A program made the translations under genes and the position numbers. A stretch of DNA of 64,000 nucleotides from Pseudomonadota bacterium (lineage in GTDB: Bacteria > Desulfobacterota > Desulfobacteria > Desulfobacterales > Desulfolunaceae), in assembly GCA_018818835.1 (NCBI GenBank), contig JAHIRD010000026.1, positions 1 to 64,000 of the forward strand. Direction: 5' to 3'. Position 1 is the first letter of the stretch; each line of letters starts with the position of its first letter. Below, piece by piece: positions 1 through 38,008 of this stretch. The notes under the pieces were generated by a model. That model ran no database searches. It was not told the origin of the DNA and was given only the letters and a program-made list of their open reading frames with translations.

Positions 1-3
1 ATG

Positions 4-3000
4 CGGTTCATCCCCACAGGTGTGGGGAACTCAATCTTGTTTGAATTTTACAGTATTAACTCCACGGTTCATCCCCACAGGTGTGGGGAACTCTAAGAAC
101 TTGCGAAACATTATTCCTGTACAAACGGTTCATCCCCACAGGTGTGGGGAACTCCTTTTACACATTTCTCGTTCAAACCCAGATCCCGGTTCATCCCCAC
201 AGGTGTGGGGAACTCCTTGGACATTATGGTGGAATAGCTACACAAACCGGTTCATCCCCACAGGTGTGGGGAACTCCTATACAATATAGAGGTGCTGTTG
301 ATGACTGGCGGTTCATCCCCACAGGTGTGGGGAACTCCACATATAGTTGGGTGATCACCTCGTTTCTTCCGGTTCATCCCCACAGGTGTGGGGAACTCTG
401 TCAGAGCCTGACATGACTCGTTTCGGCCTCCGGTTCATCCCCACAGGTGTGGGGAACTCGATCCAGGAGTCCGCTTCATTCCTCCTCCTGACGGTTCATC
501 CCCACAGGTGTGGGGAACTCTCTTTTAATAAGTCACATGCTGTTTCTTATGGCGGTTCATCCCCACAGGTGTGGGGAACTCTTGCCCAAAGAATGCTACA
601 GCAGCATAGTATTCGGTTCATCCCCACAGGTGTGGGGAACTCGTATTTCCCAAGCCGAAGGGGCATGCCGAACACGGTTCATCCCCACAGGTGTGGGGAA
701 CTCTTCTTGTCTGACCTGATACGTTCAAGGATATCCGGTTCATCCCCACAGGTGTGGGGAACTCCTTGGAAAAGAGTAGTGAAAGAAGTAATCAAACGGT
801 TCATCCCCACAGGTGTGGGGAACTCGTTTGAAGATTGCTCTTTGCAAGAATCCATTCCGGTTCATCCCCACAGGTGTGGGGAACTCTATATGAAATTAAG
901 TATCAGTAAAAATGTAAGCGGTTCATCCCCACAGGTGTGGGGAACTCTTCCGAATGTTTGTATTACCACATTTGTCTCACGGTTCATCCCCACAGGTGTG
1001 GGGAACTCTTCTTTATCCGATTCCAATTTTTCTTTTTTAGCGGTTCATCCCCACAGGTGTGGGGAACTCTACCGCCGCAAGTATCACAGGTTCGGTAAGG
1101 GCGGTTCATCCCCACAGGTGTGGGGAACTCCTATAGTATTCTCTGGGGGAAAACAATTTCACCGGTTCATCCCCACAGGTGTGGGGAACTCCACCACGAC
1201 TTGAAGCGCCCCTAAAATAAAATCGGTTCATCCCCACAGGTGTGGGGAACTCAGTGCCGACTCTGGTGTTGGTGGTAGTACAGGCGGTTCATCCCCACAG
1301 GTGTGGGGAACTCCACAGGTAGTAATCGTGGCCGTAATTGGAGCGCGGTTCATCCCCACAGGTGTGGGGAACTCTATCAACAGTATTATCATACATATCA
1401 AGAGCACGGTTCATCCCCACAGGTGTGGGGAACTCATTTTTACTTTCCTTTTCAGCAATTTTACTGACGGTTCATCCCCACAGGTGTGGGGAACTCCAAT
1501 TCAAACAGATCCATCCTGAACGGATTGCCGGTTCATCCCCACAGGTGTGGGGAACTCCATCTATGCCGGGGGTGACTCTTGGCGGAAACCGGTTCATCCC
1601 CACAGGTGTGGGGAACTCAAAAAATATTCCTCGCTCTCTGGCTGAAAAAGCGGTTCATCCCCACAGGTGTGGGGAACTCGGCCCGGTCGGAGATAGGACC
1701 GTTTATATTTTCGGTTCATCCCCACAGGTGTGGGGAACTCGAGGTTGAGAGAACAGAACAAAAACTTACAAACGGTTCATCCCCACAGGTGTGGGGAACT
1801 CCTGTTCTACATGTGCAAATTATAGGAAGAGGACGGTTCATCCCCACAGGTGTGGGGAACTCCCTTTCTTTTTTTATAAAAAAAGGTTATAACGCGGTTC
1901 ATCCCCACAGGTGTGGGGAACTCAAATGGACATAAATCTTGATCTTGATAAAATACGGTTCATCCCCACAGGTGTGGGGAACTCTGGGTACGTGGAACAT
2001 GTGGAACACGTCAATACGGTTCATCCCCACAGGTGTGGGGAACTCGGAGCCTGGGTAAGCTTGCCCTCGGACATAAGCGGTTCATCCCCACAGGTGTGGG
2101 GAACTCGTAAGCCCAACCCAGTCAAGCGGCAAGACTACCGGTTCATCCCCACAGGTGTGGGGAACTCAAATGTTCAATCCCTGTTATTATAATGTGCAAA
2201 CGGTTCATCCCCACAGGTGTGGGGAACTCATAAAGAAATAACATATTCATTCCAAGCCCACCGGTTCATCCCCACAGGTGTGGGGAACTCTTTCCACGAA
2301 CATTTCAAGCAGGGTCCGTGGGCGGTTCATCCCCACAGGTGTGGGGAACTCCTGAAAATTCCGGGAATCTTATCTTGAATGTGCGGTTCATCCCCACAGG
2401 TGTGGGGAACTCTCGGTACCAATGACCCTGAAACAGAAGTAACACGGTTCATCCCCACAGGTGTGGGGAACTCTTCAAGATACTTCACAGGCTCCCCGTC
2501 TGGGCCGGTTCATCCCCACAGGTGTGGGGAACTCCGTGGCGGGACAAACATCCAATGGTTGTAGCACGGTTCATCCCCACAGGTGTGGGGAACTCATATG
2601 TCTCTGATTCGTTTGCCGTTTTATATGCGGTTCATCCCCACAGGTGTGGGGAACTCCCTGCCCATTTTAATGCCTGGTTTATTTTATCCGGTTCATCCCC
2701 ACAGGTGTGGGGAACTCTGCTTTCTTTTCAGATATTGTTTATAATATCCCGGTTCATCCCCACAGGTGTGGGGAACTCAAGCCGGTCAATGGTCCGTTGC
2801 CCAAGGTTTTCGGTTCATCCCCACAGGTGTGGGGAACTCCTTTGCCATGTCCATTCATACTGACTATCTGTCGGTTCATCCCCACAGGTGTGGGGAACTC
2901 ATCATAAAAAAAGAAAACTATTGAATTACTAACGGTTCATCCCCACAGGTGTGGGGAACTCAACAGACATTTTTCAGACATTGATACAACTATCGGTTCA

Positions 3001-4120
3001 TCCCCACAGGTGTGGGGAACTCAAGAAAACTACTCCAATCAGCCATTTATAATCCGGTTCATCCCCACAGGTGTGGGGAACTCTCGTCCAGGCAGATGAC
3101 GAAAAAACCGAAGCGCGGTTCATCCCCACAGGTGTGGGGAACTCCGCATACGACTACAGACGCCGCTGGATCATCACGGTTCATCCCCACAGGTGTGGGG
3201 AACTCTTAAAAGATCATTCGATTTATTCGAGTGTACACGGTTCATCCCCACAGGTGTGGGGAACTCATATTTAGGGTGTGTTTGGGGCAAATAGCCCACG
3301 GTTCATCCCCACAGGTGTGGGGAACTCGTGTGAAATGAGCAAGAAAACACGAATAAAAGCGGTTCATCCCCACAGGTGTGGGGAACTCTGCTGGGGCCTG
3401 TGTCTTACCTGCTTCTGTTCCGGTTCATCCCCACAGGTGTGGGGAACTCAGAAAATGTCATAACGTTATTAATAGTAATATCGGTTCATCCCCACAGGTG
3501 TGGGGAACTCTACCGCCGCGAGTATCACAGGGGCGGTAAGGGCGGTTCATCCCCACAGGTGTGGGGAACTCTTTATAACCTGTGTTTGATCATTTATTTT
3601 TATCGGTTCATCCCCACAGGTGTGGGGAACTCCTGGCGTTGACGCTATATAGGCCGGGAGTGCCCGGTTCATCCCCACAGGTGTGGGGAACTCAATATAA
3701 CACCAAGTTGATCTGCAATACCATCCGGTTCATCCCCACAGGTGTGGGGAACTCATGAGCTACATTACCACTACAATCTGTGATAACGGTTCATCCCCAC
3801 AGGTGTGGGGAACTCAACGAGCATGCTATGGTAATATTCCCCAGGAACGGTTCATCCCCACAGGTGTGGGGAACTCTTTTCTGATGGTGGGGGCCCCAAA
3901 ATCACATGCGGTTCATCCCCACAGGTGTGGGGAACTCATATTGAGCTTGTCCATGCAGTAACCCCATAGCGGTTCATCCCCACAGGTGTGGGGAACTCTG
4001 CTCAGGACAAAGGATGGACACGCATCTGGCCGGTTCATCCCCACAGGTGTGGGGAACTCTGCTGTGGTTAGTTTAACATGTCAAACATTGTCGGTTCATC
4101 CCCACAGGTGTGGGGAACTC
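4..4120 (-). CRISPR. Type I-E CRISPR array, 68 repeats and 67 spacers
   Basis: A 29-bp repeat (plus strand begins CGGTTCATCCCCACAGGTGT and ends GGGGAACTC) recurs every 61 bp from 4 to 4120. I counted 68 copies and saw no mismatch in any. Spacers are 32 nt except the one at 2168-2200, which is 33 nt. The repeat has a 6-bp stem (CCCCAC/GTGGGG). Its reverse complement begins GAGTTCCCC and ends ACCG, the usual reading direction of type I-E repeats, so the array is transcribed on the minus strand from the leader beside cas2. The first three bases of the window belong to another spacer, so the array continues to the left. The absence of degenerate repeats suggests the trailer end is not reached here. 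Confidence 0.98.
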
Positions 4121-4212
4121 TCTTCCTGGAACTTATTGTTTTTAGAAGAGTTTTTGATAGTCAGTTTTTGTACCGAAATTTTTTATATTGTTTATCATTT
4201 ATCACTCAATTG
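4121..4212 (-). promoter_or_regulatory. CRISPR leader
   Basis: This AT-rich 92-bp stretch lies between the cas2 stop and the first repeat, at the side expected for the leader from the repeat orientation. On the minus strand a TTGACA hexamer overlaps the cas2 stop codon (4211-4216), but I see no -10 box at ideal spacing. Its role as promoter and spacer-integration platform is inferred from position. Confidence 0.75.
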
Positions 4213-5457
<1,245 letters not shown>

Positions 5458-5461
<4 letters not shown>

Positions 5462-6507
5462 CCGTTTTCCCCCTCTGTTTTCAACTGGGTTTCCTGTTCG
5501 ATCAACAATCGTTCTTTACAGATTTCCGTTGCCAGTTCTTCTTCACTGGGCAAGTAAAGCTTGTAGCGTGAGGCAAATATCTGATTGTTTCCTTCGGGTA
5601 AGGTATAACGCACCACCGCCTCACTTTTTTCGGAACACAGAATGATGCCAATGGGCGGATTCTCTTCGGTGTTGGTGATATCGCGTTGGTAATAGTTCAC
5701 ATACATCTGCATCTGTCCCATATCTTTATGCGTCAGCTCACCTACTTTCAAATCAATTAGAACAAAACTGCGGGTCAGACGATTGTAAAAGACCAGATCA
5801 ATATAAAAATGTTTGCCATCCAGCGTGATCCGTTGCTGTCGGGCCATAAACGCAAAGCCTTTCCCCAGCTCCAAAAGAAAATCCTTCAGCCTGCCGATCA
5901 ACGCTCCTTCAAGCTCTTTTTCAAGAAACCGTTCATCCTGCCTCAGTCCCACAAATTCGAGCACATACGGATCTTTGATTAAATCTTCCGGCTGTCTGAC
6001 CTCGTGTCCTTTCTTGGCCAGCTCCAACACTCCTGTCTTATCCCTTGAAAGCGCCAGCCGTTCAAATAAAAGCGATGCAATCTGCCGTTCCAACTCACGG
6101 GTGGACCAACGTGAATTAATAGCTTCCTGTTCATAAAATGCCCGTGCCTCAGGCTTTTCAACACGCAGGAGAATCCGGTAATGGGTCCAGCTTAATTCGG
6201 AACGCAGTGCGTTCCGAATTGGATAAGTCTGGTAAAACGAACGCATATTCCTTAAATTTCGTTCATCAAATCCTTTACCGAATTCAGAGGTAAGGTTGTT
6301 TGCCAAATCTATCAGCAACCCTTTGCCATATGCTGCTCGTGCCTCGCCGTTTTGCTCATCTTTCACCAGAACCCGCCCGATCTCCCAATAACAACACACC
6401 ATTTCATGGTTGACGGACTGCCATGCACGTTGACGAGCCCGGGTGAGAATGTCGCGAATCTCGGTGTATACATGTTGCTTCGCTTTTTCTGGGTTTGTTT
6501 CGGTCAT
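5458..6507 (-). CDS. PDDEXK nuclease, DUF1016/YhcG family, inside the cas operon
   Basis: A 349-residue protein of the DUF1016/YhcG family. The N-terminal half (about 1-170) is the helical DUF1016 N domain with the conserved YWEIGR segment (residues 40-45) and the FGKGFDERNLRNMRSFY stretch. The C-terminal half carries a PD-(D/E)xK nuclease core: D237 in FYIDLVFYNR, then D252 and K254 in the IDLK strand. The length is normal for the family. It starts 64 bp after cas6e with a GGAG ribosome site and its TGA overlaps the cas1 ATG. It therefore sits between the interference and adaptation genes, where standard I-E operons have nothing. DUF1016 proteins are known from defence neighbourhoods, but a role in spacer processing or as a passenger defence gene is only inference. 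Confidence 0.9.
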
Positions 6508-6533
6508 GGTTTAACTCCAATAAAAAACGTCAG

Positions 6534-6543
6534 TTGTCGACAA
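6534..6543. promoter_or_regulatory. TTGTCGACAA palindrome upstream of the nuclease gene
   Basis: A perfect 10-bp palindrome lies in the 64-bp gap between cas6e and the nuclease gene, flanked by CGTC and GACG that extend the symmetry loosely. This is the only real gap inside the cas operon. It could be an operator for an internal promoter, but no convincing -35/-10 pair was seen. Confidence 0.3.
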
Positions 6544-6571
6544 ATTGCCGACGGTTTAAATCCATCCTTTT

Positions 6572-7168
6572 TTATCCCGGAGCAATGGAAAGTAATCCAC
6601 AGCCAAAACCTTTTGCCGGGCCGATACCTTCAATAATTTTATTCAGCAATTTATCAGGATCAACAATTTGAAATCTACCGTCAAACCGGGCTGTTTTTAT
6701 TCGGATCTGATTCTCTTTTTTGAGACCGCTGATATAACCTTCATCAGTAACAGTAAACGACGAAATTTTAACACCCATCGTTTCGGACCATTTTAACATC
6801 CATGTTTCTAATGCATCATCACGGATTAAACCATATCGTTTCCCATTTCTCTTTACCGTAGGGTTTCCTCGCAGTCGGAAACGCAAACAAGCCCCTGCAT
6901 TCAACACCGGATTAAACGGTTTTACTTGAAAGAATATCAATCCTTTACCAGAATCTTTCAGATCAGTCCAATCGGGGTTCACTGCGCTTTGAACAAGAAT
7001 GTTGATTCCACTATTATTCCATTCCGGTTCAACTCGAAACAATACACGGGGTTTATTCTCATATGCTTTAAAACCGGACATCACTGTTTCATGAAGTCGA
7101 TAAATATCCCCTGTTGTTTTCATGGTGCCTCGACTCAAGGGATCAAACGACAACCGGGATAAAATCAT
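6572..7168 (-). CDS. cas6e: CRISPR RNA endoribonuclease Cas6e (CasE)
   Basis: A 198-residue protein of the CasE family that cuts the repeat hairpin of the pre-crRNA and stays bound to the 3' end in Cascade. The likely catalytic histidine is H26 in IYRLHETVM, equivalent to H20 of E. coli CasE. The C-terminal glycine-rich loop characteristic of Cas6 proteins is present (GIGPAKGFGCGLLSI). The ATG overlaps the cas5 stop by four bases. It is the last gene of the interference block before the inserted nuclease. Confidence 0.95.
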   Translation of the reverse strand: MILSRLSFDPLSRGTMKTTGDIYRLHETVMSGFKAYENKPRVLFRVEPEWNNSGINILVQSAVNPDWTDLKDSGKGLIFFQVKPFNPVLNAGACLRFRLRGNPTVKRNGKRYGLIRDDALETWMLKWSETMGVKISSFTVTDEGYISGLKKENQIRIKTARFDGRFQIVDPDKLLNKIIEGIGPAKGFGCGLLSIAPG

Positions 7169-7851
7169 TCGCCACCTCCTTGCAGTCTGGGTATGACCTG
7201 ATGAATCCGGACATAACGGTCACGGAAACGTCTATCTTTTAGATCAAAACTGATCGGTTGATCTTTTCTGACAGCATGGGTTTTTTCATCCGTCTCAATG
7301 ACAACACGCATGGGTTCAAACGTTGAATCCTTCGCATTCTCTTTTTTATTAAACGACTGAACGAGGGGCGGATACTCCTGAAAAGCGCGATCCAAATTTA
7401 TGCCAGTCATCAATCCATCTGAAAGAAAAAATGGGATACTGGGAACGAATGATTTTCTTCCAAGAAAGAGGGGCCGCTTTGGATGTTTCATCGCATGGTG
7501 TATGTCTGATAGCAACGCATGATCCCCTTCCAGGCCCACAAGAAAAACCGCGTCTGAAAGGTAATGCCGTGTGGATACCAGATTTGACGGGGTCCCGCCA
7601 CTGGCGACGGCCACCTGCTGGACCGTTTGAAAATCTTTTTTCATGATTCCTTCACGATCCGCCCGTACGCCCATGTGTAATGACGCAAGATCGGCAATCG
7701 AATCTTTCCGATTCCGGCCCAGTGCAGATGCAACCAGGCCGATGATTCCACTTTTGGAAGGCTCCCGTTCTGTATCCCGGATTTCAAAACGGCTGCGGGT
7801 TCCCCAGGACTGCATGGGGCCGCCACAAGCCATCAACAGGACACTGTTCAT
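7165..7851 (-). CDS. cas5e: Cascade subunit Cas5e (CasD)
   Basis: A 228-residue protein with the classic Cas5 N-terminus (LLMACGGPMQSWGTRSRFEI) followed by EPSKSGIIGLVASALG, as in E. coli CasD. In Cascade it binds the 5' handle of the crRNA next to the large subunit. Both gene ends overlap their neighbours by ATGA (cas7 upstream, cas6e downstream), so the interference genes form one tightly coupled message. Confidence 0.95.
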   Translation of the reverse strand: MNSVLLMACGGPMQSWGTRSRFEIRDTEREPSKSGIIGLVASALGRNRKDSIADLASLHMGVRADREGIMKKDFQTVQQVAVASGGTPSNLVSTRHYLSDAVFLVGLEGDHALLSDIHHAMKHPKRPLFLGRKSFVPSIPFFLSDGLMTGINLDRAFQEYPPLVQSFNKKENAKDSTFEPMRVVIETDEKTHAVRKDQPISFDLKDRRFRDRYVRIHQVIPRLQGGGE

Positions 7852-9035
7852 TTTACCCCCCCAGTTTTATTGTTCAATACGTCAGAGACACTCGTTACAA
7901 GGTCTTCCAGGCTCCCTTTTTCCTTGATCAGGTTCATGGTTTCATCGCAAATTACACCCTCAGAACCATATGCTTTAGAAAGTTTATTAAAGTAAGATTC
8001 AAGGGCTTCAACAGAAGCTTCCTCAATGGACACATCCCGTCCTGCACGTACCGGTTTTTGAAAGGCATTGGCCAGTGACCAGGGAAATCCGTCATTGCGA
8101 ATAAGGACTCGTGCATATTCCGGTGGATTTTGGGCAGCCATGCTGTTCTGTTTGCCAGTGGGAACAGCTTTGATACTTGCTTCCACAAAGCCTTTGACCG
8201 TTGAGAGAAGAAGATCTTTATTTGCCGAACCAAGGTTTTCACTGAGTTTCTTCAGGTCAATGTTGGCATAGCGATAAAAACAGGAGCTGTTGAACTCAAC
8301 AGTCCCTATCATATCGGAACCCGATGAATCTTCAGGAAGAAGATCATCCACCGCCGTATAATAATCCATTTCCATGTCGACTTTGTGAGTTGATAGAGCA
8401 TGGGCCATCTGACATGCCGCATCCACATTCATGTTTTTGTCATCGGCCACCATTCTTCCAAACAAAGCGATATCTGCAGCATAGCTGTGATTTGCAGTAC
8501 GAGATTTTCCGATCACTCCTTTGAATGCAGCTTCCACAGGTTTTAATTCTTCATTAAGCGTTTTACTTTTTTTCTTTTTTTTCCCGTCTTCTGATTTTAC
8601 CGAGTTCATCAGTTTTTCACTTTCAACGGAAAGGATATCCCAATGTGCATTCCCGATTTGTGCAAGTTCGGATATTTCATTTTCGCCAAAATAAAGAAGA
8701 TATTCCGTCTTTTCAGGATCTTTGAGTTTTAATCCTATCAGGCCAATAATCAGGGAGGCTACTTTATCTGATATTTCAGTATCTTTTTGATAATCATTAA
8801 CCAATATACTGGAAAGCCGGGATTTTAATCTTTTCGTTCTGACGCCAATATCTCCTCCCCCGGATTTTATCTTGTCAGCAAAGGATTCATGCCGTCGGAC
8901 AGACCGTTTAATGCACTGGCTTGAAATTCGTGCTCGGCGATGTCCTCCGAAAATACAATCCTTTGGGGCATTGGTATCATCACGGTTGAGATTGGATGGC
9001 GCAAAATTCTGAAGAATATGAAGTTCAAGTATCAT
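7848..9035 (-). CDS. cas7e: Cascade backbone subunit Cas7e (CasC)
   Basis: A 395-residue protein of the CasC/Cse4 family, beginning with LHILQNFAPSNLNRDD and GGHRRARISSQCIKR, both hallmarks of I-E Cas7. Six copies form the crRNA-binding backbone of Cascade. It is slightly longer than E. coli CasC (363 residues), with a lysine-rich stretch (GKKKKKSKT) near residue 150 that looks like an inserted loop. The start codon overlaps the cse2 stop (ATGA). Confidence 0.95.
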   Translation of the reverse strand: MILELHILQNFAPSNLNRDDTNAPKDCIFGGHRRARISSQCIKRSVRRHESFADKIKSGGGDIGVRTKRLKSRLSSILVNDYQKDTEISDKVASLIIGLIGLKLKDPEKTEYLLYFGENEISELAQIGNAHWDILSVESEKLMNSVKSEDGKKKKKSKTLNEELKPVEAAFKGVIGKSRTANHSYAADIALFGRMVADDKNMNVDAACQMAHALSTHKVDMEMDYYTAVDDLLPEDSSGSDMIGTVEFNSSCFYRYANIDLKKLSENLGSANKDLLLSTVKGFVEASIKAVPTGKQNSMAAQNPPEYARVLIRNDGFPWSLANAFQKPVRAGRDVSIEEASVEALESYFNKLSKAYGSEGVICDETMNLIKEKGSLEDLVTSVSDVLNNKTGGVK

Positions 9036-9550
9036 GCCTGGTCTCCTTCCTGGGTTTCGTTATGTGTGGTCTCTTGTTGTTCTTTCCAGTATTCCTTTGC
9101 CCATGCGAGCTGAACAAAACGGTCTTCATGATTCCAGTTTGTCAGGTCAGCGATAAGCCTATGATAGTCAATGGTTACACCTTTGGATTTTGCGAGGGAC
9201 ACAGCCTGTTTTAGGTGGTACCCCATATCGTCACTGTCCGCATTCAAAAGACGGATAAATCTTTTTTCAATGCTGTCCGTAGGGTCTAATCTCTGAATCA
9301 CTTTGAAAACAGCCCCCATATTCCTGCCCAGTGGTGCTCGTTCAGGATGTAGTGCAAATAAAGCCGCGACCAGAAAGCAGTGTTCCTGCATCCAAAGGCT
9401 TTTGGGTAAAAAATTCACAACATAGGGATACATGTCCGGAGTCCCCATGCGTTTTCCTAATCCCCTACGGAGTTTAGCCATGGTAGCACGATCATCCCTG
9501 TCTCTGATCTTTTCAAGATATTCAACCAAGGGATGTTTCTTTTGTATCAT
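9032..9550 (-). CDS. cse2: Cascade small subunit Cse2 (CasB)
   Basis: A 172-residue alpha-helical protein of the Cse2/CasB family, with the typical RATMAKLRRGLGK segment near residue 21 and a family-typical length. Two copies line the belly of Cascade and stabilise the crRNA and the displaced target strand. It overlaps cse1 upstream and cas7 downstream by four bases each. Confidence 0.93.
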   Translation of the reverse strand: MIQKKHPLVEYLEKIRDRDDRATMAKLRRGLGKRMGTPDMYPYVVNFLPKSLWMQEHCFLVAALFALHPERAPLGRNMGAVFKVIQRLDPTDSIEKRFIRLLNADSDDMGYHLKQAVSLAKSKGVTIDYHRLIADLTNWNHEDRFVQLAWAKEYWKEQQETTHNETQEGDQA

Positions 9551-11097
9551 TGTTGTTCACCTCCTGTTTTTAGTCGTTTGGCAAGACCTGAATTCAATAG
9601 TCCCGAAGCCCGAACCCATGAACGGTAAGTTCGAGCCGATGACATATATCGTTGTTCGATTCCCGTTTTAAATGCGTTACGTGCGATTGTTTTGATGCGT
9701 TTTTTTAGTTCCTGAAAAGAGACATCCCCTTGGTCCACCACCATGATAAAATTGTGGAATGCGGATTCCATTTGATCCCAATAAATCATCATGAATCCGC
9801 ATGATTCGGCTTTAGAACGAATTTCCGCTTCTTTTGAATTTTCAGGAAGGCACTCCCGGATAAAACTTTTTCCTGCATAGTCCAACACACTCGCTCCATC
9901 TTCAATAAGGCTTAAACCTTTACGAAGACTGTCCACAAGCTTTTTTTCTGCAAGTAAATCGGTCGGGATGGAAAGCATTTCTTTGCGCCAAGCAAGTGGA
10001 TTCGCTTTGTCATTTGCCAGAGCGTAGATGGCGCAACGATGACGTTCCGGCAATGATACCAGACGTTTTAAACGAGCGTTGCCAATATGCCTGAATGCCT
10101 TTGGCCGTTCATCTGCATCAGGACCAAAAGTAAAAAAGGCGGAGCTGTCTCTCCAAATCATTCTTTCCGGTTCCAGTTGGACAGAGTATATTTCACCCTT
10201 TTTATTCTCTCTGATAATTCCAAAAGGACTACGAACGTCTGGAAATGATTCACCTTGAGCGATATGTAGCCTACGAACCATTGGGGTGCCGTTATTATCC
10301 ATTTCAGGTATTAGAGAAATATGACGGGTTTTGCATGTAAGATAGTTGAAGTAGCCTGTAGGTGTTGCAATACCCTCGCCACCAATATCATCCCTCTCCC
10401 ATACAGGACAGTCATTTGGTTGTGATGGGATAGGTTTATCGGCATTGCATATAAGCATATTCAATGTCAGCGTGTTAAATAAGTTTGCACCCATGAGTAA
10501 GCAGAATAAACCAGTAACCATACTCCCATGTAAAAAGCTCTGCTGATAATCAAAAAAGTTTGTTGTTTTTTTATTCAGCCCACCCATGAGATATCCTTGT
10601 GCAGAGAGGAGGATCAGAGCCACTTCTTTGGGTGGTAAAGACAAAACCTCTCTATCCAAGGAATGATCAAAAAGTGTCTTTGTGTTGCCGTTTGCTTTGG
10701 CCGTTTGAATTGAAGAAATCTGAACAGGTGAACTTTTTTTGTCTTTATCAATTATTTCGAGTCCAGCAGTCTGATAGAAAGGATATTCTTCTGAAAAAAG
10801 GTCAAATCGACTGTGCCATTTTTCGAAATATTCTATGACCTTGCTTTCTTTAAATTCTTCGGACTGATATAACTCTTTCCATGCCATTGTATCTTTTGGC
10901 CCATCTACAATCCGGTGAACCAGGGCAAGCAGCATTCGATACAGCGCCGCCTCTTCAAGTGGATTCTGTAAATCAAACCCTGAAATATCATGGGCACTTA
11001 ATAGAAGTTCCTTAAGCCCCATCTCTTTGTATTCCCCTGATTGTATTACGCAGGGTATCCACGGTTCATCGATCAGGTTGAATGAAAATTCCCCCAT
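9547..11097 (-). CDS. cse1: Cascade large subunit Cse1 (Cas8e/CasA)
   Basis: A 516-residue protein starting MGEFSFNLIDEPWIPCV, the recognisable N-terminus of the CasA/Cse1 family. In Cascade it reads the PAM and recruits Cas3. An in-frame ATG lies five codons upstream at 11112, but GGAGG sits eight bases before the ATG at 11097, so that start is preferred. It begins 14 bp after the cas3 stop. The length matches the family (about 500 residues), and no truncation is seen. Confidence 0.94.
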   Translation of the reverse strand: MGEFSFNLIDEPWIPCVIQSGEYKEMGLKELLLSAHDISGFDLQNPLEEAALYRMLLALVHRIVDGPKDTMAWKELYQSEEFKESKVIEYFEKWHSRFDLFSEEYPFYQTAGLEIIDKDKKSSPVQISSIQTAKANGNTKTLFDHSLDREVLSLPPKEVALILLSAQGYLMGGLNKKTTNFFDYQQSFLHGSMVTGLFCLLMGANLFNTLTLNMLICNADKPIPSQPNDCPVWERDDIGGEGIATPTGYFNYLTCKTRHISLIPEMDNNGTPMVRRLHIAQGESFPDVRSPFGIIRENKKGEIYSVQLEPERMIWRDSSAFFTFGPDADERPKAFRHIGNARLKRLVSLPERHRCAIYALANDKANPLAWRKEMLSIPTDLLAEKKLVDSLRKGLSLIEDGASVLDYAGKSFIRECLPENSKEAEIRSKAESCGFMMIYWDQMESAFHNFIMVVDQGDVSFQELKKRIKTIARNAFKTGIEQRYMSSARTYRSWVRASGLLNSGLAKRLKTGGEQQ

Positions 11098-11111
11098 ACA
11101 CGTTACCTCCA

Positions 11112-13679
11112 TTATATTTCACAAAGTTCAAGACCAGTTTCGTCGTTATAGATAAGGCCAGGGTAAAAAAGGGCCTGCCCATTCTGGATAATCAATGGCC
11201 TGGCATTCCTCAGCTGTGGGATTTCCATCCAATCCTCAGGTGATTCAAGATTTTCAACAGATTTGATAATTTTTCGAGTGGATACATCCACACTTTGGGA
11301 CAGAAGCTTTCTGATCTCATCCCTGTGTGAGGGTTTGAAAACATCACGTTCAAGGATCACAAGTGTAATAGACTCATTGCCTAAACGCGTTGTGATCATT
11401 TTGTCTTCATTGAAATCATTGGAAAGGTCCAAAAGATAATCTATGTCATTCAAACAGTTGTGGACAGAGCACAGGGTGTTGGTCCGCGCAATAAATTCCT
11501 GGGCCATTTCTTCACCTTTGCGCTCTTTTTCCCAGAGATCCATGGCGTTGGAAAGATGGCCCGGAATACAGCCGGAGGCATTATAAACGGTTTCAATCCA
11601 GTCGATACCATTGCCCGGCAGAGTGACCTCGGCGTTTGTTTCACAGCCCAAAGGAGAGACCCAAAGAGCCGTTCGGGTTAAAATATCCTTTTCATAGACA
11701 TACCCGCTATCACCAAAATCAGGTACTTTGTTCTGATAGTCAGGGATGGTCACAACCAGAGACCGTGTTTTGAGTTTTTCCGGCCGAAAGGGTGATGGCA
11801 TATGATGTCTATGCAACCTGCCTGCACGTTGTAAAAGAAGATCTGCCGGGGCGAGATCGGAAATCATCAGATCAAAATCAACATCAAGACTTTGTTCGAT
11901 AACCTGGGTTGCCACCACAATACCTTTTTCAGGCCTGTTACCGTTTTTTCCCCACGTCGAAAGAATCTGTTCTTCGATTACAAGTCGTCTTCCTTTGGTA
12001 AACCTTGAATGGAACAGAACCGTTTCTGCGTCGGGCATTCCATTTTTTACGAGACGATAAAGGTCCTGCGCCTCTTTAACCGTATTAACGATACAGGCGG
12101 CCGAACCTCCATCCGAAAGTCGTGTTTTAAGGATATCAAGAATTCTATATTTCTTATTGTTCAGATCTGTGACCAATAATTCGACGGAGATCGGGTCTGG
12201 TGCTTCATCTACAATTGGCATGGTGACTATTTTTTTATTATTCAAATCTATGCCCGTAACACATGGATAATCAACGGATTCGTCAACTCTTGCATTCGGG
12301 ATAAAGGCCTGAAAAAGTTTTTGACGTAGGTATCGGGGCAAAGTCGCAGAAAGAAGAATAATGGATGTTCCGCATTGCCCCAGCCAACCGATAAGTGAAA
12401 ATATTTCTTCTTGCATATAGACGTCATAGGCGTGAACTTCATCAAGAATAAGGACCTTGCCGGAAAGACCGAAAAGTCGCACAAAAAAATGACGAACTTT
12501 AAGCGCCGCCATCAAGGCCTGATCTATTGTACCAACACCGTAGCCGGAAAGGAGTCCCCGTTTTCTTGACATAAACCATGTGGACGCCGTCATGTCCCCT
12601 TCACCCGCATTCACAGAAGAAAGTCTGAGTGCTTCGTAGTTCCGGTTTAAATCTGCATTGCCGTGGAGGAGGTGCAATTCGGCACCACCTTTAGGCTTCA
12701 AGTTTTTTAAAAATTTTTCCATCCTTGGCAACATGGCGTTGCCGGTGGCTTGGGTGGGAAGTGCATAAAAAAGCCCCCCAATATCACTCTTTGCAGCGAT
12801 TTCTGAAAAAGCGGATAGTGCCGCCTCGGTTTTGCCGCTTCCCATTGGGCTTTCAACAGCAATAAGCATGGGGTGGGACAGTCGTTGAGTCACATGGATG
12901 GTTGCAGCCTGACAGGCATTAGGATTATCAAAACCAAACAAATCTTTAAATTCATGCAGCTCAATTTTATTATTTGTCATCTTTAACGTTTCGACCAGTC
13001 GTTTTGCGATATCGAATCGTTCCTCAATGTATTGGGGAAGTGACGCGGGTGTTCCGGATGTATAGACGAAGTTTTCTTCTGATGAGGCAATCCAGTCAGC
13101 GACGCAAACAAGGCCCGCAAGAATCATTAAAACAGGAATAGGGGGAGTATTCACACCGGCAAGGGAGTCTATTTCAAATAAGTCTGAAAGGTATTTCATC
13201 ACAGACAAGCGGCCATCCTTCCATGGCCCATCACCTGAACCGAATCCTTCTTCGCCTGCAAATACCCCATGGTGAGCTGCAAGAATGCTTGAAAACCCGA
13301 GAGCTAAGTCTTCTGAACAACCCAGTTCGTCCATTAGTAAATCAGGCAGAATATCAAGACTAACTTGTCCATGGAGAGTTTCGGATGCCTCTGGAAATTG
13401 ATGGCCCGACTCATGCAATATATTGAAAAACTGTGTATTTTTCTTTTGAAATCCAGGACTTATTTTACCGATATCGTGAAGAGCAGCAAAAAAAGCTATT
13501 AGATTGAGTAATTTCATTTCTGAAAGACCGAATACCCCTTCCAGCCTTTTTTTAATTGAATTGGGCAATCCATAAAATAATTCATGTGCAACAATACCAA
13601 CGTCCAGCATGTGACAAAGCACAGGATGCCATGATTCGTTATTGTATTTCCCCCAATATCTAAAAATCTCGTCGTTCAT
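11112..13679 (-). CDS. cas3: CRISPR helicase/nuclease Cas3, type I-E
   Basis: An 855-residue fusion of an HD nuclease and a superfamily 2 helicase. The HD part shows H18, H23 and D26 and the LHDIGK motif (H68, D69). The helicase part has a Walker A (SPMGSGKTEAAL), a DEVH box (LILDEVHAYD), a motif III-like LLSAT and motif VI (LLQRAGRLHRH). Cas3 is recruited by target-bound Cascade and degrades the invading DNA. It is first in the operon. All catalytic motifs are intact. Confidence 0.96.
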   Translation of the reverse strand: MNDEIFRYWGKYNNESWHPVLCHMLDVGIVAHELFYGLPNSIKKRLEGVFGLSEMKLLNLIAFFAALHDIGKISPGFQKKNTQFFNILHESGHQFPEASETLHGQVSLDILPDLLMDELGCSEDLALGFSSILAAHHGVFAGEEGFGSGDGPWKDGRLSVMKYLSDLFEIDSLAGVNTPPIPVLMILAGLVCVADWIASSEENFVYTSGTPASLPQYIEERFDIAKRLVETLKMTNNKIELHEFKDLFGFDNPNACQAATIHVTQRLSHPMLIAVESPMGSGKTEAALSAFSEIAAKSDIGGLFYALPTQATGNAMLPRMEKFLKNLKPKGGAELHLLHGNADLNRNYEALRLSSVNAGEGDMTASTWFMSRKRGLLSGYGVGTIDQALMAALKVRHFFVRLFGLSGKVLILDEVHAYDVYMQEEIFSLIGWLGQCGTSIILLSATLPRYLRQKLFQAFIPNARVDESVDYPCVTGIDLNNKKIVTMPIVDEAPDPISVELLVTDLNNKKYRILDILKTRLSDGGSAACIVNTVKEAQDLYRLVKNGMPDAETVLFHSRFTKGRRLVIEEQILSTWGKNGNRPEKGIVVATQVIEQSLDVDFDLMISDLAPADLLLQRAGRLHRHHMPSPFRPEKLKTRSLVVTIPDYQNKVPDFGDSGYVYEKDILTRTALWVSPLGCETNAEVTLPGNGIDWIETVYNASGCIPGHLSNAMDLWEKERKGEEMAQEFIARTNTLCSVHNCLNDIDYLLDLSNDFNEDKMITTRLGNESITLVILERDVFKPSHRDEIRKLLSQSVDVSTRKIIKSVENLESPEDWMEIPQLRNARPLIIQNGQALFYPGLIYNDETGLELCEI

Positions 13680-13865
13680 AATTCTTACAATCCATTATGA
13701 AAATTAATTTTTCAGTCCAGAAACCGAGAACCTCTATGTTATCAGAGACTCTGTGGTAAACTTAAAAATTTCATACATCCAACACTACCCCCCACCCATG
13801 TCAAAAACGGTCCCACATGCATAACTTTTTCACAGTTGCTTAAAATTATTTCCCCCCCCCCATGC
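13680..13865 (-). promoter_or_regulatory. Upstream region of the cas operon
   Basis: This 186-bp gap between the WYL regulator and cas3 must hold the cas promoter if the operon has its own. A TTGACA hexamer on the minus strand (13799-13804) is a possible -35 box, but no good -10 box follows at the right distance. A run of ten C lies at 13851-13860 next to the end of the regulator gene. Confidence 0.35.
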
Positions 13866-14858
13866 TCATCCCCTACCCAAGATTTCCTTTAGCTCCCCCT
13901 CAATTTCTTTTCTCATCCCCTCAGGCTCCAGCAGCCGGGCTTCTTTCCCAAATGACATGATCCAGCGTTTGACATCGCGGTAGCCGGAGGTGGCCATGGA
14001 CAGGGTGAGGGAGCCGTCCGGGTGGTTGTCGATGTGTTGGATTTTGGCCCAGGTTTTTTCTATGATGTAGCGGGCTTCGTTGGGCGAAAAATGGATTTTA
14101 ACGGTGACCGGGTCGCCGTGGGTCAGGTCAAAGGCTGAGTTGAGTTGGTCTTCAGGGTTGAAATTTGCCGGGTAGTCCACGTCCTGATTTAGTTTTGAAA
14201 TGCGTCGGATACGTTCCACTGCGTAGCTGCGGACAGAATTGTCACTGAGCTTGAGGGCGAATAGATAGAGGCCGCCGTTGTTTTCGTAGAAGTGTAAGGG
14301 ACCGATAGTTTCTTCTTTGACCGTGTCATTATAGAACACATGGTAGGTGATTTTGCAGGAGTTGTTGTTCAGGATGGATTCGGTCAGGGTTTCGATGACG
14401 GATTCTTTTCCAGCGTATGTCTTGGATCCCATGGATTTTGAAATGAAAATCCGCTTGAGGCTTGAAAGATCTTTCCGGGTTTCTTTGGGGACAAAAAACA
14501 TCAGCTTGGTCAGGGTGGTACGGATATGGTTGTCAATTTCAGTGCCTTTGAAGACAACAGACTCACCCGCCATCATGCACAGGGATATGATTTCGGAAAA
14601 GGTCAGGGCGATTTTGGGCAGACTGAGATTGGGAAGCCGATCGACATACGTGGCGTCAATATGCCATCGTTTCTGTTTTTCCAGGGGAACCTGCTCATCG
14701 AAAATGGGGATGTTTAATTTTTCAATCGCATTGAGAAGCCGGGATACGGAACGGTCCGTGATGCCAAGATTTTCAACAAGGTCTTTTTTGGTGCAGCCCT
14801 GGGGCCGGGATAACAGACTGAGTGCTTTGATCAGTTGGATCAGATTCTTTCCCCTCAT
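13866..14858 (-). CDS. WYL-domain transcriptional regulator beside the cas operon
   Basis: A 330-residue protein with an N-terminal winged helix (residues 5-65, including TKKDLVENLGITDRSVSRLL) and a WYL-type ligand-sensing domain around residues 165-255, followed by the WYL C-terminal extension. The name-giving motif reads LYL here (NNGGLYLFALKL). WYL proteins act as ligand-responsive regulators, and several control CRISPR or other defence genes. Orientation and position directly upstream of cas3 suggest it regulates this locus; that is inference. The ribosome site is GGGAG before the ATG at 14858. Confidence 0.85.
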   Translation of the reverse strand: MRGKNLIQLIKALSLLSRPQGCTKKDLVENLGITDRSVSRLLNAIEKLNIPIFDEQVPLEKQKRWHIDATYVDRLPNLSLPKIALTFSEIISLCMMAGESVVFKGTEIDNHIRTTLTKLMFFVPKETRKDLSSLKRIFISKSMGSKTYAGKESVIETLTESILNNNSCKITYHVFYNDTVKEETIGPLHFYENNGGLYLFALKLSDNSVRSYAVERIRRISKLNQDVDYPANFNPEDQLNSAFDLTHGDPVTVKIHFSPNEARYIIEKTWAKIQHIDNHPDGSLTLSMATSGYRDVKRWIMSFGKEARLLEPEGMRKEIEGELKEILGRG

Positions 14859-36822: not shown

Positions 36823-37623
36823 TCAGGCCAGGGATGCTCGGGTGGTTTTTTTGGATTTGCGCGTATAGCCGCCCAGCCCCAAAAGGCCGGAACCAAGCAA
36901 AAACAAGGTGCCGGGTTCAGGAACAGGTTGTGCGGAAGAGGGCTCATGTTCCATTATTTCGTTGATTTTGGCATAGGTAAAGTCAGCCGTGAAACGGGTG
37001 GGGTCATTTTTCAGGTAATCCAGATCAAACAGACCGATATAGTCATCTTTGGCAAAGGCCACGTCATCCCATACCGAATAGAGGATTGAGTAGGTGATCA
37101 CGTTCAGCAGAATGTCTTCATCTTTCATTTTTTGGCTTAAGGCTTTCTCGCCGGTCATACCTTTATAAGAATAAGTCTCTGCATAGTCCGCATCTTCGTC
37201 GGTGATTAAAATCATGACTTTTGCGAAATCATTTCCGGTCCAGGCGAAATTGTCGGCTGCCCAGTCCACGGCTTGGTAGCTTCGCTCAATGCCACCGTAT
37301 AGGTTGTTTGCTGCCCATTCTGCTTCGGCAACCACTGTGGCGATATCCGAAGGGATATCGGCCCAGGCGTTCCGGGTCTTATAATATCCGGACAGGGTCC
37401 CAGCCGTATATTCAAACCCGGCAATGCCGTAATTGGCTTTGATCCCTTTTTTTTCCACCGTTGAATTGATTTCTTTGAGGCTGTTGCTGATCCATTGAAA
37501 TTCATTATACATGCTTCCTGACTGGTCCACGACGAAAACCATGTCTGCAAAGGATGCGGCCAAAAGTGATGCAGGTAATAAAACTAAAAATGATGCAATC
37601 AGGCTGATAAGTGTTTTTTTCAT
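36823..37623 (-). CDS. Von Willebrand A domain PEP-CTERM protein
   Basis: A 266-residue exported protein: signal peptide (MKKTLISLIASFLVLLPASL), a VWA domain with an intact MIDAS (DQSGS, later ITDEDAD), and a C-terminal PEP-CTERM signal (PVPEP, LFLLGSGLLGLGGY, basic tail). GGGGG precedes the ATG at 37623. A second in-frame ATG at 37737, with a strong AAGGAGGG site, would add 38 residues before the signal peptide. It heads the operon with the autokinase and sugar transferase. Its likely role is metal-dependent adhesion or matrix structure at the surface. Confidence 0.88.
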   Translation of the reverse strand: MKKTLISLIASFLVLLPASLLAASFADMVFVVDQSGSMYNEFQWISNSLKEINSTVEKKGIKANYGIAGFEYTAGTLSGYYKTRNAWADIPSDIATVVAEAEWAANNLYGGIERSYQAVDWAADNFAWTGNDFAKVMILITDEDADYAETYSYKGMTGEKALSQKMKDEDILLNVITYSILYSVWDDVAFAKDDYIGLFDLDYLKNDPTRFTADFTYAKINEIMEHEPSSAQPVPEPGTLFLLGSGLLGLGGYTRKSKKTTRASLA

Positions 37624-37773
37624 AGTTCCCCCTTGGTTAGGTAGCCCCGCTGTCATATCCTTATGGGACTTAGACCGGTGGATTTGCGCCCAGGATTTTT
37701 CAATCAAGGTTGCCGTTTCTTCCAATGTATGAATCATATTTCCCTCCTTTTTTACTGTTTGATCATACACCAT

Positions 37774-37789
37774 CGCAATAGGTGTGCCG
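37774..37789 (-). promoter_or_regulatory. Sigma-54 promoter of the VWA/exopolysaccharide operon
   Basis: The minus strand reads CGGCACA-CCTA-TTGCG, with the invariant GG and GC exactly ten bases apart. Transcription would start near 37763, upstream of both possible start codons of the VWA gene. Confidence 0.7.
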
Positions 37790-38008
37790 GAGGTGAAAAA
37801 GGGTAGACTCAAAGGCGGGTTGTTTGATGTTTAAATATCTGATATTATGAATTAATAATTTTTTTATTCGAAGATATTTCAGCGAAAGGGGGCTGGGAAA
37901 AAATGTGGAGGAATAGGCCCATATGTCAGAAAATCAGGCAGGTGAAAGACTGGTAATCTATTTAAGGTTCTGTAATATTTATATATAGTGATGAAGATTT
38001 TGATATGT

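Follow-up and report, generated by a model that had tools for sequence, protein, structure and literature searches.

Does a nuclease gene set into a CRISPR-Cas operon, with its stop codon overlapping the start codon of cas1, belong to the machinery that captures spacers? The locus that raises this question lies on a Desulfobacterota contig (JAHIRD010000026.1), of which positions 1 to 64,000 were analysed (the window, 64,000 nucleotides). An earlier note, made from the letters of the window alone, had placed a YhcG-family gene between cas6e and cas1 and had tied its translation to adaptation through an ATGA overlap with cas1.

The operon and its nuclease gene

A complete type I-E operon is encoded on the reverse strand of the window, in the order cas3, cse1, cse2, cas7, cas5, cas6e, yhcG, cas1e, cas2e and then the CRISPR array. 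The subtype is given by the presence of Cse1, Cse2, Cas7e, Cas5e, Cas6e, Cas3, Cas1e and Cas2e together with the array. All on the reverse strand, cas3 (HD and helicase domains) occupies 11112..13679, cse1 9547..11112, cse2 9032..9550, cas7e (cse4) 7848..9035, cas5e 7165..7851 and cas6e 6572..7168, with cas1e (TIGR03638, 378.7 bits) at 4532..5461 and cas2e (TIGR01873) at 4213..4533. The array (1..4121) extends past the contig start; 68 repeat copies are seen, with 29-nt repeats, 32-nt spacers and a 61-nt period in 66 of the 67 repeat periods.

The yhcG gene (5458..6507, reverse strand; 349 amino acids) does lie between cas6e and cas1, 64 nt after cas6e, and its stop codon and the cas1e start codon do share an ATGA at 5461-5458 (5458..5461, reverse strand). 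A terminator had been suspected by eye in the spacer between cas6e and yhcG (6508..6571, reverse strand); a terminator scan came back empty there, and the spacer folds no better than its shuffles (z -0.70). A separate antitoxin gene beside yhcG is absent, the cas6e-cas1 interval consisting, on the operon strand, of yhcG and these 64 nt only.

Upstream of cas3 lies a gene for a WYL-domain regulator (13866..14858, reverse strand), which has a 67% identical counterpart in the same place in locus L132 and a 69% identical homologue upstream of the cas1f gene in L205. Elsewhere in the window, a c-di-GMP-I riboswitch (37637-37724, reverse strand, 56.8 bits) overlaps the 5' part of an open reading frame on the same strand (36823-37812). 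The predicted product combines a VWA-like region with a PEP-CTERM-like tail, and the TTG start listed for the frame is probably too early.

The YhcG protein has the architecture of the YhcG/DUF1016 family, with DUF1016_N (6.9e-47) followed by YhcG_C (3.1e-57), a member of the PD-(D/E)XK nucleases. It also matches two PADLOC profiles, the candidate system PDC-S02 (4.5e-148 over 341 residues) and the CRISPR-associated profile 'PD_DExK' (2e-40). The catalytic set of E, D and D/E-x-K is present as E196, E200, D237, D252 and K254, all five of which are kept in 10/10 CRISPR-linked homologues, while D237 and K254 are invariant across 92/92 aligned YhcG sequences; D237, D252 and K254 are thus intact and numbered as the earlier note had given them. 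Intact copies show dN/dS values of about 0.06-0.14, with synonymous sites near saturation in most pairs, and by this measure intact YhcG is under purifying selection and not decaying. A sequence search among solved structures returned no homologue. An AlphaFold model of modest quality (pLDDT 73.1, pTM 0.46) has as its best Foldseek matches NucS/EndoMS, Card1, a Cas4-family protein, Can2 and ParB/Noc; these weak matches (E 1e-3 or worse) agree with the predicted PD-(D/E)XK core and DNA-binding region, and prove neither. Homologues of YhcG also exist on phages and plasmids, every one of them below 60% identity.

A guest slot at the Cascade/cas1 junction

The yhcG gene is found immediately upstream of cas1e in at least eight genomes besides that of the window. 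A scan of GTDB contigs recovered YhcG homologues of 69-79% identity directly before cas1e in L003, L004, L005, L006 and L011, a truncated yhcG before cas1e in L038, a frameshifted one adjoining a cut cas1 in L024, and, in L008 and L017, copies next to pieces of a cas1 that is decayed or cut off. A sample of 389 genomes of the window's class yielded 44 with a Cas1e above the curated cut-off, seven of which (the window counted; one copy truncated and one frameshifted) carry yhcG directly before cas1. These seven are mostly the genomes of the GTDB scan; L120 is new, and L006 and L011 fall outside the class sample. The placement of yhcG before cas1e is not due to chance. The earlier note had allowed that the insertion might be confined to this strain, or that homologues at the site might have lost their catalytic residues. 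Neither was seen in related genomes, where the yhcG-cas1e order recurs with these residues conserved.

One type I-F locus, L007, carries yhcG directly upstream of a cas1f-like gene, along with a long cas2/3-like gene (10235-14514 of that locus). Recurrence in type I-F was considered and rejected, L007 standing alone beside 15 other Cas1f loci with no intact slot family upstream of cas1f. In L205, another locus of the type I-F search, Fic-like fragments lie on the other strand.

We further collected the surroundings of Cas1e from the window's class, from its phylum and from a second class, to which the Aquaspirillum serpens genome with locus L053 belongs and which we take to be Gammaproteobacteria in GTDB. 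The Cas1e proteins fall into two sets by identity to the window Cas1, the single reference: those of at least 59%, termed clade A here, and the rest at 49% or less, with nothing between. Clade A spans Desulfobacterota and Gammaproteobacteria, and its loci very often carry genes between cas1 and the last of the Cascade genes. The guests in this slot belong to the YhcG, BRO-N, Fic, RhuM-Fic, 23S-IVP, PIN, ParE, MazE and nucleotidyltransferase families and lie nearly always on the operon strand; counts per guest family are minima, since guests were found by tblastn with few queries and by selected Pfam scans. BRO-N guests occur in L117, L122, L126, L127, L130, L133 and others, Fic guests in L113, L125 and L158, and both together in L123, L131 and L139, and there are also a RhuM-Fic fusion (L171), a 23S-rRNA-IVP protein (L162) and an addiction-module antidote (L161). 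Loci of the second class add MazE with PIN (L257), RHH with ParE (L264), UPF0175 with a DUF3368 protein (L263), nucleotidyltransferases (L266 and L271), PIN proteins (L268 and L273) and a DUF5615 protein (L275); in L257 and L264 the guests do include an antitoxin gene beside a toxin. Outside clade A, no Cas1e locus was seen to carry YhcG, BRO or Fic in the slot. The description of standard type I-E operons as running straight from cas6e to cas1 holds for the other Cas1e groups sampled and fails for clade A, about half of whose loci have an occupied slot.

Decayed guests are also found: yhcG is truncated in L132 and frameshifted in L156, and remnants persist in L114, L121 and L166. Their occurrence indicates that guest turnover is real. 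L132 also has a 163-residue open reading frame without a Pfam match (11676-12167) between the truncated yhcG and cas1, overlapping the cas1 start, which may represent a further guest family. The 3' part of L139 (reverse strand of the locus) stacks a DnaQ-like exonuclease, a DUF1016_N fragment, BRO and Fic before cas1, and no Cascade gene was detected in the stretch fetched for this locus. L141, a scrambled and decayed type I-E locus, retains cas1 pieces on either strand along with what is left of YhcG and Fic.

The preference for this junction can be counted. A gap longer than 250 nt is present at the Cascade/cas1 junction in 43/71 clade-A loci (an upper count, because L260 and some other gaps may hold an undetected cas6), as against 4/299 at eight other resolved junctions together (cas1/cas2, cas7/cas5, cas5/cas6e, cas3/cse1, cse1/cse2, cse2/cas7, cas6e/cas7 and cse2/cas6e; Fisher 1.6e-32, with related loci not independent). 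The junctions cas3/cas7 and cse1/cas7, at which a divergent Cascade gene goes undetected, were left out of this count. Intact same-strand BRO, Fic and YhcG genes all lie at the Cascade/cas1 junction, whichever of cas5 and cas6e comes last; the exceptions to the position are the scrambled L141 and, in L113 and L123, three fragments that lie upstream of cas3, two of DUF1016_N and one of BRO. On the Cas1 tree, 11 changes are needed for the slot being occupied or empty, 6 for YhcG and 10 for BRO. Long gaps before cas1 were also present in 11/36 other Cas1e loci, and those inspected by eye (L148, L149 and L154) hold a Cas6-like open reading frame after cas5; the gap in the clade-A locus L260 probably hides an undetected cas6 in the same way.

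The overlap with cas1 is likewise shared among guests. The same 4-nt ATGA is found in L120 (YhcG), L117 and L122 (BRO), L125 and L131 (Fic) and L171 (RhuM-Fic), and the remaining guests either overlap cas1 (by 1 or 8 nt) or stop 1-73 nt short of it. Start-stop coupling is a property of the slot and not of the nuclease and, since BRO, Fic and RhuM-Fic guests show the same overlap, it gives no ground for tying yhcG to adaptation. The slot thus cautions against taking operon coupling to cas1 as a sign of a role in spacer acquisition.

Separate histories and the role of YhcG

Between the window and L003, Cas1 is 91% and YhcG 77% identical, while between the window and L004 the values are 69% and 79%; YhcG and Cas1 identities are uncorrelated over 21 pairs from seven loci (Spearman -0.10). 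As far as these sequence comparisons reach, the histories of YhcG and Cas1 are separate and unlinked. In the YhcG tree, the ten CRISPR-linked sequences fall within one group of 18 rows. L009, L010, L012, L014 and L016, which come from other contexts, lie in this group too, and a topology that unites the CRISPR-linked sequences in one clade is not rejected (p-AU 0.53). Three entries labelled 'other' in this tree (L088, L090 and L091) are duplicates of the CRISPR loci L005, L120 and L003; the count of changes was not used because these mislabelled duplicates inflate it.

Two of these relatives lie among restriction-modification genes. In L009 (71% identity), an M-like and an S-like gene of a type I restriction-modification locus enclose yhcG, and in L014 (70% identity) a BRO-yhcG pair is flanked by restriction-modification-like genes, both as read from sequence. 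A local duplication was also considered as the source of the window's gene and set aside, the genome's other yhcG (L002; G000:C156:44214-44666) being only 36% identical; this copy lies between N6_Mtase and Methylase_S genes (Pfam), a type I restriction-modification layout. Among the neighbours of other YhcG genes, restriction-modification families are the commonest recognisable group, yet a minority. The CRISPR operons themselves have been reassorted: L003, L004, L011 and L115 have Cas1e proteins 69-91% identical to that of the window and Cascade proteins only about 25-35% identical, which indicates that adaptation and interference modules have been exchanged.

Many exchangeable guests at the same junction make yhcG probably an add-on defence gene and not a part of spacer capture. 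We hold, with a probability of roughly two in three, that yhcG occupies an exchangeable guest slot at the Cascade/adaptation junction of one type I-E lineage and encodes a putative defence or toxin-like nuclease that is not required for acquisition. On comparative grounds, the reading that suits YhcG best is that of a mobile guest, defensive or toxin-like, which would be co-expressed with the adaptation genes, and not that of a prespacer trimmer. The gene would share a transcript with the CRISPR genes, much as some YhcG relatives may with restriction-modification genes, and this transcript would yield YhcG together with Cas1-Cas2. The protein may bind DNA through its helical N-terminal part and cut it with the PD-(D/E)XK domain, acting as a back-up restriction or abortive-infection nuclease. 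The 3' end of each guest would carry the ribosome-binding context for cas1, and for this reason an insertion before cas1 could leave the operon unbroken. Two observations speak against the guest reading: a role dedicated to CRISPR would also explain why YhcG is strongly conserved and clusters with CRISPR, and the yhcG before cas1f in L007 belongs to a second subtype without Cas4.

A more elaborate proposal, which we advance tentatively, is that the Cascade/cas1 junction is a dedicated cargo slot whose interchangeable guards (a nuclease, a Fic enzyme, a BRO protein or a toxin-antitoxin pair) are translationally locked to cas1, such that damage to the adaptation genes, or their loss, would be penalised or would set off abortive infection, while the guests might also serve as portable homology for module swaps between Cascades. 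That the guests are selfish or neutral passengers, gathering where modules recombine and insertion is tolerated and bringing no benefit to CRISPR or host, is in our estimate unlikely. Their turnover and decay in L132, L156, L114, L121 and L166 would suit such passengers, as would the pairing of Cas1 from one clade with very divergent Cascades. However, the low dN/dS and the fully conserved catalytic residues of intact copies argue otherwise, as does a guest list largely limited to toxin, defence and DNA-binding families.

If YhcG were a prespacer nuclease in the manner of Cas4, a PD-(D/E)XK enzyme recruited independently to trim for Cas1-Cas2 in type I-E and I-F systems lacking Cas4, this would account for the tight coupling to cas1, the conserved catalytic site and the recurrence before cas1e and once before cas1f; the weak Foldseek similarity to NucS/EndoMS, Card1 and a Cas4-family protein also fits. 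Spacer lengths speak against it. Repeat periods of 61 nt make up 173/181 in systems with intact YhcG and 1014/1046 in those without (Fisher p 0.36), spacers are 32 nt and arrays equally long in YhcG-less systems, and the arrays of empty-slot systems run to 39, 64 and 127 repeats, among them that of L115/L237, whose Cas1 is 91% identical to that of the window. Normal spacers in empty-slot systems indicate that YhcG is not needed to make them, although spacer length tests the idea only weakly: the make-up of an array does not reveal the frequency of acquisition, and YhcG may affect the acquisition rate. Unrelated guests that are not nucleases share the place and the coupling, YhcG and Cas1 do not co-diverge, and close YhcG relatives occur in loci without cas1, all of which makes a trimming role improbable. 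The earlier note's use of cas1 coupling as the mark of an adaptation role is not supported, given the shared overlap, the unlinked divergence and the normal arrays. Of the three roles it had offered, guest exchange, spacer lengths and divergence alike disfavour prespacer trimming, while a passenger or a backup defence gene would fit.

Finally, yhcG is very unlikely to be a CRISPR-regulated guard like CreTA/CrePA, which Cascade would keep repressed by means of a crRNA-like antitoxin and inhibition of CRISPR would set free, as an ungapped search of the window and 15 related loci found no CRISPR-repeat-like element outside the array beyond the shuffled expectation.

Comparison with known systems

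Toxin and nuclease genes near CRISPR loci have usually been described singly, case by case. Here one junction, fixed to within a few bases by the cas1 start codon, hosts rotating defence and toxin families across two phyla. The slot offers a natural comparative experiment, in which the same Cas1 is preceded by YhcG, BRO, Fic, a toxin-antitoxin set or nothing, and is a place to look for unknown defence genes. A limited search of the open-access literature turned up no account of such a slot before cas1e, which is no proof of novelty.

Like Cas4, the window YhcG is a PD-(D/E)XK nuclease adjoining cas1; unlike Cas4, it has an N-terminal DUF1016_N domain and a different architecture, and Pfam and NCBIfam profiles gave no Cas4 family match. 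The slot guests resemble CreTA and CrePA in being toxin genes tied to type I CRISPR-Cas loci. They differ in that CreTA and CrePA have a crRNA-like antitoxin derived from degenerate repeats (PMC10097628, PMC12737573), and the ungapped search revealed no such repeat-derived element in the window or the 15 related loci. The strong matches to PDC-S02 and 'PD_DExK' imply that some CRISPR association of the family is already on record; these PADLOC profiles give no position, partner families or mechanism. The window protein shares domain architecture and nuclease motif with the YhcG/COG4804 family of PD-(D/E)XK proteins described in 2005, which was reported to have no conserved neighbourhood except one type I restriction-modification cluster in Methanosarcina acetivorans (PMC1189080). 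In contrast to that description, a recurrent place of YhcG genes inside type I-E operons is documented here.

The closest general framework is the coupling of immunity and suicide proposed by Makarova et al. (2012) in 'Live virus-free or die', where toxins are placed in CRISPR and restriction-modification operons and are repeatedly replaced (PMC3506569). In the parts of that article drawn on here, typical antitoxins are said to be apparently not encoded in immunity loci, and a single insertion point shared by successive guests is not met with. The slot before cas1e has such a point and, unlike that statement, is also filled by sets that include antitoxins, MazE-PIN in L257 and RHH-ParE in L264. 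In its main feature, toxin-like nucleases and other toxins swapped repeatedly within a CRISPR operon, the slot fits the prediction as stated there, and it makes the idea of immunity-suicide coupling directly testable.
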